A stretch of 64,000 bases of DNA, taken from the NCBI GenBank assembly GCA_026985075.1, contig JALSQX010000033.1, forward strand, positions 1 to 64,000, given 5' to 3'. The notes below the pieces were generated by a model. That model did no database searches. It was not told where the DNA came from and saw only the letters and a list, made by a program, of their open reading frames with translations. Positions 15,775-24,960 of this stretch are shown in pieces; within the stretch, counting starts at the first letter, position 1, and each line of letters begins with the position of its first letter. Position numbers and translations under genes: made by a program. This DNA comes from Blastocatellia bacterium (lineage in GTDB: Bacteria; Acidobacteriota; Blastocatellia; HR10; J050).

Positions 15775-15825
15775 CCGTGGTTGGCGATGTGCAGAGGTCT
15801 CCCCGGCTCGCCGAGGAGGATGGCC

Positions 15826-16281
15826 ATGAGAATCCTCTCTCTTCATGTCGATCACTTTCGCAGCGAGGTGACCGAGCGCGGTCGATCCCGGATCCTCGAG
15901 GAGCCCGAGGAAAGGGTCGTTTCTGTCGGCGAGGCGCTGGTCATCCTCAGTTGTGTGGAACGGGCTGATGAGACCGATCCGTCCTCCGTCGTCCGTCGAG
16001 CCGCTGATGAGATCGAAACCATGGCCCGACAGCTCAAGGTGGACACGCTGGTCATTCACTCATTCGCTCATCTCTTTGCCGAGCTGGCCAGGCCGTCTAC
16101 GGCACTCGATGTGCTCAAAGAGTTGACTGCGGAGCTTCGGTCGCGTGGCTTCACCACGTATCGCACGCCGTTCGGCTGGTTCAATACGCTGGATCTCAGA
16201 GCCAAAGGACACCCCCTGTCCCGAATGGCTCGCGTGATTCCTCCCGATGAACCGTTGAAGGCGTCTCCGTCACCCCGATGA
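15826..16281 (+). CDS. Stand-alone archaeal-type threonyl-tRNA synthetase editing domain
   Basis: The 151-residue protein matches the archaeal ThrRS N-terminal editing domain (tRNA-Thr_ED, related to D-aminoacyl-tRNA deacylase): IHSFAHL at residues 77-83, TPFGWF at 114-119 and KGHPLS at 127-132 correspond to the family's YPFAHLS, PFGWY and KGHPL motifs. No aminoacylation domain is attached. The family hydrolyses Ser-tRNA-Thr; a trans-editing role is therefore inferred. GAGGAGG lies 6 nt before the ATG at 15826; earlier in-frame starts at 15781 and 15820 are less well placed. It probably forms an operon with argS. Confidence 0.8.
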   Translation: MRILSLHVDHFRSEVTERGRSRILEEPEERVVSVGEALVILSCVERADETDPSSVVRRAADEIETMARQLKVDTLVIHSFAHLFAELARPSTALDVLKELTAELRSRGFTTYRTPFGWFNTLDLRAKGHPLSRMARVIPPDEPLKASPSPR

Positions 16282-19161: not shown

Positions 19162-20646
19162 ATGACTGACCGCGTCGACGATTCTCAACGAGGATCACCG
19201 CATCTGCCACCGCTGGCTCCGGCGGATCTCCCCGCGTATCCGGGGAGCTTCTGGCGGCTGGTCGGCCCCGGCGCCGTCCTGGTCGGCCTCTCCATCGGTG
19301 CTGGCGAGCTGATCATCTGGCCGACGGCCGTGGGGCGGTATGGATCGGGCATGATTTGGGCGGCGGGCGTGGGCATCCTGTTTCAGATGATCATCAACCT
19401 GGAAGTGGCCCGATACACGCTGGCCACGGGAGAAACGGCCTATACCGGGTATGCCCGCCTGTGGCGAGGGTACGCCGTCGTCTTCATCATCCTCAATGTG
19501 ACCTCCTGGCTGTTGCCCGGGTGGGCTCGCAGTTGCGGCAGCGCCTTGCGCGCGCTGGTGCTGGGGCCCCGCGTGACGCCCGCCGAAGGTGGTCCCGACT
19601 GGGTGTGGACCACGTTGACGTTCGTTATCGTGACCCTGGCTCTGTTCGGGCCGAAAGTCATTTACCGCTCGGTCGAACGATGGACCGAATCGATGGTCGT
19701 CATCGCCGTCCTCGGTTTGGTCGTCCTGGCGGCGCTGGTGGGTACGGCCGAGCACTGGAAAGCCGTCGCTCGAGGAGCCGTGAACCTGGGGCATAAGGAG
19801 CCGAGCGTGGGGTATCCTCGGTTCTTCAGTTGGATCGTCTTCGCCGGAGCCGGTGGGACGGCCAATCTGTTCTACTCGTTCTATCTGCGCGATAAGAACA
19901 TGGGCATGGGTGCCCGCATCCCGGTGCTCACCAATATTCTCCGCGACCGGGAACCGCGCGACTCTCTGACCGGATATGGCTTCCCCGATCAGGGGCCGAA
20001 CGTCGCGCGATGGCGGAGATGGTGGCGCCACGCCGTCCAGGATCAATTGCTCTTCTTCTGGCTCCTGAACAGTTTCACCATTCTTCTGTTCATCTTCGCC
20101 TCCCTCGCCGTGGTTCACCCCCTGACCGAGCGAGGCCTCGTTCAATGGGATGGGCTGAGGGCCTACTATCAGGGTAAGGAGATCGGTTTCCTGGCGCTGG
20201 AAGCATTGGCGCTCGGCCAGATGTTTCCCCCGGCCATGACGATCTTTCTTCTGGTGGCCGTCGCCACGCTCCTTTCGACGCAATTGACGCTCGTCGATGG
20301 CGTGGCCCGGAGCCTCTCGGACCTCATTCACACCAACTTCGCCTTCGCGCGTCGAAGGCCGCTCGGCGTCTGGTACGCCTGGGTGGCCGGAGCCTGGATC
20401 GTATTGGGATGCGCGCTCACCTACGTGCTGGAAACGAGCACTCGCGCGCAGAGCTTCTTGTTCCTGACCGGGTTTTCCGGGGGTATCGCCATGGCCATTT
20501 ACTGTCCTCTGACCATGCTCATGAACCGGCGCTTTCTGCCAGCGAGCGCGCGGCCCGGCCCGCTGATGACGGCCTTGATGGGTCTGGCCAGCGCCTTCTA
20601 CGTGGGCTACGCCGTTTATTCCGTCGTCACCTTATTGACCCCTTGA
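19162..20646 (+). CDS. Nramp-like divalent metal transporter family protein with atypical motifs
   Basis: The 494-residue protein has about 11 membrane segments and the Nramp opening pattern (VGPGAVLVGLSIGAGELI). Where canonical Nramp proteins have the metal-binding DPGN in TM1, this protein reads GAGE, and the TM6 MPH motif is replaced in FAGAGGTANLFYSFYL. The fold assignment is therefore firmer than the substrate: manganese or iron transport should not be assumed. A soluble loop of about 60 residues containing many Arg separates TM6 and TM7. It follows an exported amidohydrolase and converges with the DUF3006 gene. Confidence 0.72.
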   Translation: MTDRVDDSQRGSPHLPPLAPADLPAYPGSFWRLVGPGAVLVGLSIGAGELIIWPTAVGRYGSGMIWAAGVGILFQMIINLEVARYTLATGETAYTGYARLWRGYAVVFIILNVTSWLLPGWARSCGSALRALVLGPRVTPAEGGPDWVWTTLTFVIVTLALFGPKVIYRSVERWTESMVVIAVLGLVVLAALVGTAEHWKAVARGAVNLGHKEPSVGYPRFFSWIVFAGAGGTANLFYSFYLRDKNMGMGARIPVLTNILRDREPRDSLTGYGFPDQGPNVARWRRWWRHAVQDQLLFFWLLNSFTILLFIFASLAVVHPLTERGLVQWDGLRAYYQGKEIGFLALEALALGQMFPPAMTIFLLVAVATLLSTQLTLVDGVARSLSDLIHTNFAFARRRPLGVWYAWVAGAWIVLGCALTYVLETSTRAQSFLFLTGFSGGIAMAIYCPLTMLMNRRFLPASARPGPLMTALMGLASAFYVGYAVYSVVTLLTP

Positions 20647-23764: not shown

Positions 23765-24889
23765 TCATTCCGCAAAACGAGTGGGAGCGAACGGCTCCAG
23801 CGGAAGCGAAGGTTGACCGGAGGTGATGAGCTCACTGATGAGCTTGGCCGTGATGGGAGCGAGCAAGATGCCATTCCGGAAATGCCCTGTGGCCACGATC
23901 ATCTCGACGGCAGGCGTTCGGCCCAGAATGGGGCGATCATCGGGTGTTCCCGGTCGTAAGCCGGCCCACATCTCGGTGATCGTCGCCCCGGCCAACGATG
24001 GGACCAGGGCCAAAGCCGCCTGAAGCAGATGGCCGATCCCCTGAGCGGTCACACGCTTATCGTACCCGACGTTCTCCATCGTCGCGCCCACCAATGTGCG
24101 ACCATCGGGCCACGGCACGAGATAACAATGACCCGAGTAAACCAGATGGCGAATCGATGGAGTGGATTGCTTCAGGCAAAGCATCTGACCGCGAATGGGT
24201 CGAACCGGGATGTGCTTCTGAAGCTGAGGAGCCACCAATCCCGCCCACGAGCCAGCAGCATTGACGACGATTCCTCCGGCAATCATCCCGCCGGGCGTGC
24301 GCACCCCGATCGCCCGATCACCTTCCACCATCAGATCGATGACCGGCGTATGGGTGATGAACCTGACCCCCTGCTGGGCCGCGGCGACGGCCAACGCTTC
24401 TATCAGGCGACGATTATCCACGTGATGATCTTCGGGGAGATAGACGCCGACCTGTACCGTCTCGGCCAATGCGGGCTCGAACTTCCGGACCTCATCGGCA
24501 GTCAGTTCCTCGGCGGGCAGACCGGCGGCCCGCTGTCGTTCGAGCAACCCGGCCAGGGCTTCCGCTTCCACGTAGTCGGTAGCCACATACAACGTTCCCG
24601 GTTTACGATAGGCGATCTCGATGCCCGTTTGTTCCACGATCTCAGCGACGAACTCGGGATACAGGCGATGACTGGCCAGGCAGAGCTCGGCAAACGGCCC
24701 TTTGAGACCATGCGTCGCCTCAGCCTGGGGGGCGAGCATCCCGGCCGCCGCACTGGAGGCTTCGCCGCCGGGATACCCACGGTCAATGATGGTGACCGTC
24801 AATCCCTGTTGGGCCAACCGGTGAGCAATGGCGCAACCGATGATCCCCGCCCCAATGATCACGACGTCGCTCGATTCCTTCATCTCCAT
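23765..24889 (-). CDS. thiO: Glycine oxidase ThiO, FAD-dependent
   Basis: The 374-residue flavoprotein begins with a Rossmann FAD site (DVVIIGAGIIGCAIAHRLA) followed by the GGEASSAAAGMLAPQAE segment typical of ThiO/DadA-type amine oxidases, and ends with LRPGTPDDRPILGRTP and GHFRNGILLAPIT. ThiO oxidises glycine to dehydroglycine for the thiazole part of thiamine. No other thi genes are adjacent, so a D-amino acid oxidase role cannot be excluded. AAGGAG lies 4 nt before the ATG at 24889; Met at 24883 and the longer frame to 24913 are alternatives. Confidence 0.85.
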   Translation of the reverse strand: MEMKESSDVVIIGAGIIGCAIAHRLAQQGLTVTIIDRGYPGGEASSAAAGMLAPQAEATHGLKGPFAELCLASHRLYPEFVAEIVEQTGIEIAYRKPGTLYVATDYVEAEALAGLLERQRAAGLPAEELTADEVRKFEPALAETVQVGVYLPEDHHVDNRRLIEALAVAAAQQGVRFITHTPVIDLMVEGDRAIGVRTPGGMIAGGIVVNAAGSWAGLVAPQLQKHIPVRPIRGQMLCLKQSTPSIRHLVYSGHCYLVPWPDGRTLVGATMENVGYDKRVTAQGIGHLLQAALALVPSLAGATITEMWAGLRPGTPDDRPILGRTPAVEMIVATGHFRNGILLAPITAKLISELITSGQPSLPLEPFAPTRFAE

Positions 24890-24960
24890 ATCACTCCTTC
24901 CCTGTGGGATCACAAACTAGCACGGAAACCATCTGCCGTAAAGCGCCCATGGCCGTCTCT

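Follow-up and report, generated by a model that had tools for sequence, protein, structure and literature searches.

A free-standing archaeal-type ThrRS editing domain with an altered pocket in a bacterium of the Acidobacteriota

Why should a bacterium carry, as a protein of its own, the editing domain of archaeal ThrRS? In reviews, the NTD form of this fold is assigned to archaeal ThrRS, and the DTD form to bacteria and eukaryotes. The question is raised by a gene in a 64,000-nucleotide stretch of DNA from a Blastocatellia bacterium of the phylum Acidobacteriota (hereafter the window), whose genome combines an NTD-like protein, a DTD and an N2-type ThrRS (Table 1). The gene is real, native and conserved. 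It is a complete open reading frame with a GC content matching that of argS and of the window, and comparison with the ortholog of the same genus (MAG L017, Acidobacteria bacterium) gave a dN of 0.10 against a dS of 0.75 (dN/dS ~0.13), indicating conservation under purifying selection. Carriage by a phage or plasmid was ruled out, as searches of phages, plasmids and IMG/VR for the protein gave no match.

Table 1. Location of the editing-domain gene, its altered pocket codons and the upstream argS gene in the window
Feature	Position	Strand	Basis or remark
argS, arginyl-tRNA synthetase, 663 aa	13783..15774	+	NF002447, 470 bits
Shine-Dalgarno site GAGGAGG	15813..15819	+	6 bases before ATG 15826, read from the sequence
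Stand-alone tRNA-Thr editing-domain protein, 151 aa, DTD-like fold	15826..16281	+	PF08915, structure match, dN/dS
Codon of His82 (= P. abyssi His83)	16069..16071	+	Invariant, 59/59 bacterial homologues
Codons of Phe119-Asn120 (= P. abyssi Tyr120-Lys121), altered pocket residues	16180..16185	+	
Codon of Arg133 (= P. abyssi Glu134), alpha-amino clamp residue with reversed charge	16222..16224	+	

That the protein has the family and fold of the archaeal ThrRS editing domain is nearly certain. It matches PF08915 (tRNA-Thr_ED) with 128 bits (E 3.5e-37), far above the curated cut-off of 30.2 bits and over profile positions 1-137 of 137, which bears out the first-pass annotation, where the gene was read as a stand-alone archaeal-type domain following argS and this profile search was proposed as a check. 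The domain spans residues 1-138 of the 151, with no fused catalytic or anticodon-binding domain. Sequence matches to solved archaeal domains were strong (M. jannaschii 4rrf, E 2.9e-29; P. abyssi, E 7e-27; A. pernix, E 7e-20), and an AlphaFold model built from eight family members (pLDDT 88, pTM 0.83) superimposed on the three at 0.9-1.4 Å, most closely on M. jannaschii 4rrf_A (VIA Z 25.9, 0.9 Å rmsd over 138 residues), followed by P. abyssi 1y2q (Z 25.7) and A. pernix 4rr6 (Z 23.3). The model is thus nearer to the archaeal NTD than to DTDs (Z ~16 overall; 15.9 for the E. coli enzyme) or to ATD, whose fold is broadly the same (Z 13.9). DTD shares the fold class and RNA-assisted deacylation, yet forms a separate family, and its profile (PF02580) was absent from the Pfam matches of the protein up to E 1.

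The pocket tells a different story. Near the scissile bond, the archaeal NTD presents Pro80, Phe81, Ala82, His83, Tyr120, Lys121 and, from the other subunit, Glu134; the chemistry is done by the 2'-OH of the tRNA, while Lys121 places the catalytic water and Glu134 grips the alpha-amino group of serine (PMC4491819). The residues mutated in that study were termed completely conserved. Lys121 was needed in all three archaeal NTDs, with the K to M variant severely compromised, whereas Tyr120 and Glu134 could be removed from the P. abyssi and A. pernix domains with discrimination kept, Glu135 of M. jannaschii being essential (PMC4491819). Across a gap-free alignment of the pocket stretch, the counterparts of the seven residues in the window protein are Ser79, Phe80, Ala81, His82, Phe119, Asn120 and Arg133. 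Among the four chemically relevant positions only His83 is retained, and Tyr120, Lys121 and Glu134 have given way to Phe, Asn and Arg, respectively, so the serine pocket of the archaeal domains has not been preserved.

The same departure runs through the 59 bacterial homologues collected from Acidobacteriota, Chloroflexota, Planctomycetota and other groups. Position 121 is Lys in none of them (Asn is commonest, with Cys, Leu, Thr, His, Ser, Phe and Tyr also found), and position 134 is Arg or Lys in all 59. His83, Leu84, Phe81, Gly118 and Asp49 are invariant in the bacterial proteins, and the E46/D49, F81, H83, L84 and G118 positions are common to bacterial and archaeal members. As read from these alignments, the systematic charge reversal at position 134 is the main new result, and it provides a clean way to find out what determines specificity within an RNA-assisted proofreading site. 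The altered pocket may represent a compensated catalytic site, with a basic group contributed by the other subunit, or a changed substrate. It need not abolish activity, because two of the three archaeal domains tolerate the loss of Tyr120 and Glu134, the chemistry being done by the 2'-OH. The first-pass annotation had tied its assignment to both a profile match and the presence of the editing-pocket residues; the match is strong and His83 is kept, but the other three residues are absent, which leaves room for the D-amino-acid or other specificity it had also suggested.

The protein is sparsely distributed. Profile searches found PF08915 in 9 of 396 genomes of the Acidobacteriota, and in 22/380, 26/294 and 2/299 genomes of the phyla of a Ktedonobacterales, a Phycisphaerae and a Bacillota MAG, respectively; lone matches came from one Acetothermia and one Tectomicrobia MAG, and none from 10 bacterial control genomes. 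Phylum labels here follow the MAG names, and a binning error is possible for single MAGs. Contamination is unlikely in the present case because the finding is repeated and is consistent within the window's family, which holds all three of the positive genomes among 10 from its order. A frequency of ~1-9% of the genomes sampled in four phyla indicates that the protein is not generally needed. The bacterial sequences form two groups, each with a uniform pocket: one of 27 rows that includes the window protein and carries the signature FGWFN...AKGHPLSRxAR, and a long-branch clade of 32 rows, mostly from Planctomycetota and Acidobacteriota, with a support of 100/100. In the phylogeny that had been proposed as a check, all 59 bacterial rows are set apart from two archaeal domains by a branch with a support of 100/100; with two archaeal rows, the tree separates bacteria from archaea and can neither date or polarise a transfer nor prove a single one. 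A search of viral contigs and plasmids for further archaeal outgroups gave none.

The host genome (5.2 Mb, 98.7% complete) contains a single PF08915 gene, and inspection of its ThrRS, which the first-pass annotation had recommended, was informative. One full copy is present (699.5 bits), and both of its N2 motifs, HSSAH and CLGPH, are intact; the corresponding HxxxH and CxxxH motifs are kept in 16 of 16 carrier genomes checked (the latter as CRGGH in genome G132), so that lost N2 editing does not explain the protein. A role as stand-in for a missing DTD was likewise ruled out, as the host has one DTD gene separate from the editing gene (209.6 bits) and DTD was found in 30 of 30 genomes. The protein therefore does not replace a missing activity, and the editing of Ser-tRNA-Thr in trans would be redundant with the N2 site. 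In E. coli ThrRS, however, N2 editing is lost once Cys182 is oxidised (PMC4041444), which makes a back-up that lacks a catalytic Cys plausible.

The discriminator base gives a further indication of possible substrates. The archaeal NTD prefers U73 and bacterial DTD requires a purine at this position (PMC11295145). In the host, every tRNA-Thr and tRNA-Gly has U73, as does the tRNA-Cys, and these tRNAs consequently fall outside the range of DTD; the T73 called for one tRNA-Leu(CAG) apparently reflects a prediction displaced by one base. The predicted tRNA-Lys(CTT) shows C73, unusual for a lysine tRNA, and tRNA-Ile was not detected in the host genome, probably owing to an assembly gap.

Taken together, we favour, with a probability of about 0.55, a free-standing, trans-acting aminoacyl-tRNA deacylase of the archaeal NTD family that serves U73 tRNAs. 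The more general proposition that the protein deacylates some aminoacyl-tRNA in trans is likely. The full-length profile match, the close superposition on three archaeal domains, the residues common to bacteria and archaea and the purifying selection all argue for this, and the U73 of every host tRNA-Thr supplies the base needed by the archaeal NTD. Against it stand the replacement of both Lys121, crucial in all three archaeal NTDs, and the counterpart of M. jannaschii Glu135, as well as the sparse distribution. Mechanistically, the deacylase would probably be homodimeric and bind the CCA end of U73 tRNAs (here tRNA-Thr, tRNA-Cys and tRNA-Gly), hydrolysing a wrong small amino acid with the help of the A76 2'-OH and the protein backbone, the way the archaeal NTD does. 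With Lys121 lost, the catalytic water would be positioned by the positive charge of the Arg at position 134, which reaches across from the other subunit. The likeliest single substrate would be Ser-tRNA-Thr, with the protein backing up the oxidation-sensitive N2 site of ThrRS. As the main substrate, Ser-tRNA-Thr is a leading guess that we hold tentatively, given that an intact N2 site in all carriers checked leaves no evident need for a second editor.

The observations on the pocket can also be taken to mean that the substrate has changed, to an aminoacyl-tRNA without a free ammonium group (e.g. N-modified) or to U73 D-aminoacyl-tRNAs beyond the reach of DTD, with Arg/Lys134 recognising the new group. 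This would explain the basic residue at 134 and the missing Lys121 in all 59 bacterial members and agrees with the presence of both N2 editing and DTD in the genome and with the purine-73 requirement of bacterial DTD (PMC11295145). We nevertheless regard it as rather unlikely, as archaea can in part do without the side chains at 120 and 134, whose change need not imply a new substrate. A little more doubtful still is the wider claim that the bacterial stand-alone proteins are a deacylase family in their own right, recognisable by the invariant Arg/Lys134 and acting on a new substrate; if true, the proofreading of D- or N-modified aminoacyl-tRNAs would reach U73 tRNAs, which lie beyond bacterial DTD. 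More broadly, the bacterial NTD-like proteins may point to a kind of aminoacyl-tRNA error so far unknown in bacteria.

A non-catalytic relic of the editing domain, retained for tRNA binding or regulation, would account for the loss of Lys121 and Glu134 and for the want of a conserved gene partner, but is improbable in view of the invariant His83, the uniform pocket of each bacterial group and the purifying selection. The first-pass annotation had taken the place of the gene in an ArgRS operon as a clue to specificity, and an ArgRS partner that edits tRNA-Arg, for instance charged with an arginine analogue, would fit a gene lying 51 bases downstream of the argS 3' end on the same strand, with argS upstream in two relatives as well. 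The clue did not hold. Among 53 loci, argS adjoins the editing gene in three, all from the window's family and with gaps that widen from 51 to ~260 and ~740 bases, and other neighbours are found at the remaining 50; all host tRNA-Arg genes have G73, not the U73 favoured by archaeal editing domains. Since the adjacency is confined to one family, the argS link is local history and no guide to function, and the editing of tRNA-Arg is very improbable. No more credible is the clearing of Ala from tRNA-Thr in the manner of animal ATD: the broad fold is shared and ATD may use U73 (PMC11295145), but the host tRNA-Thr genes have G4:C69 or C4:G69 instead of the G4:U69 pair of the animal system, leaving that route unsupported, and the tRNA-Thr error is reportedly one that bacterial AlaRS does not commit (PMC5802732).

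The protein has several known counterparts. Archaeal ThrRS NTDs from P. abyssi, M. jannaschii and A. pernix share its family, length and fold (Z 23-26), as well as His83, the Phe/Tyr-Gly loop and the E46/D49 positions. Unlike them, the window protein is bacterial, is not joined to ThrRS, has Phe/Asn/Arg for Tyr120/Lys121/Glu134, and occurs in a host whose ThrRS has an N2 editing domain. The crenarchaeal ThrRS-ed, or Ser-tRNA(Thr) hydrolase (A. pernix ThrRS-2, NF011500), acts in trans with the same domain. Its partner ThrRS is not known to edit. In A. pernix ThrRS-2 the domain is linked to an anticodon-binding domain (PMC4491819), unlike in the window protein, and Tyr115, Lys116 and Glu129 are retained, whereas their counterparts are replaced here. 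The first-pass annotation was correct that free-standing forms occur in some crenarchaea, although the list was incomplete: a stand-alone tRNA-Thr-ED lies beside archaeal SepCysS (PMC5424206), and the domain is fused N-terminally to a few bacterial SepRS with the serine motif completely conserved (PMC8762117). These are likewise instances of the domain used outside ThrRS, bacteria included, but the SepRS fusions keep the serine motif that is changed in the window protein. An association with SepRS/SepCysS was ruled out for the host genome, where the best TIGR02539 match reached 54.8 bits against a cut-off of 365. A separate Acidobacteriota genome with a group-two domain (L202, G102:C253:153-572) has a partial, strong SepCysS match (186 bits over 137/370 positions). 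We found no literature on the bacterial stand-alone proteins or their altered pocket, subscription papers being outside the scope of the search, and such proteins may well carry automatic names in public databases.

Clustering of the flanks of the 53 loci in search of a conserved gene partner returned lineage-specific or common neighbours only. Away from the window's family, the neighbours include adenosine deaminase, a phosphonate-type binding protein and sigma-54/FHA regulators or kinases, and the recurrent flanks are Ser/Thr kinases, FHA regulators, DinB-like proteins and DUF302 (three). The DUF302 genes are found less than 4 kb away from the editing gene, in three loci from different phyla (L055:2811-3071, L062:564-950 and L059, the last ~1.6 kb away); two are confirmed by Pfam, and by eye these loci are also near thioredoxin, DsrE-like or ArsR-like genes. 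In two Acidobacteriota genomes an FHA/sigma-54 activator (L053:5592-7292, L054:6489-8204) is followed by the editing gene with zero gap, and kinase genes are found near it at several planctomycete loci. Further along the window, the product of 19162-20646 (+) is an Nramp-family transporter by NCBIfam (263 bits) that no Pfam model matches. At 23765-24913 (-), 7.5 kb from the editing gene, a ThiO-type glycine oxidase is encoded (TIGR02352, 354 bits), which probably serves ordinary thiamin synthesis.
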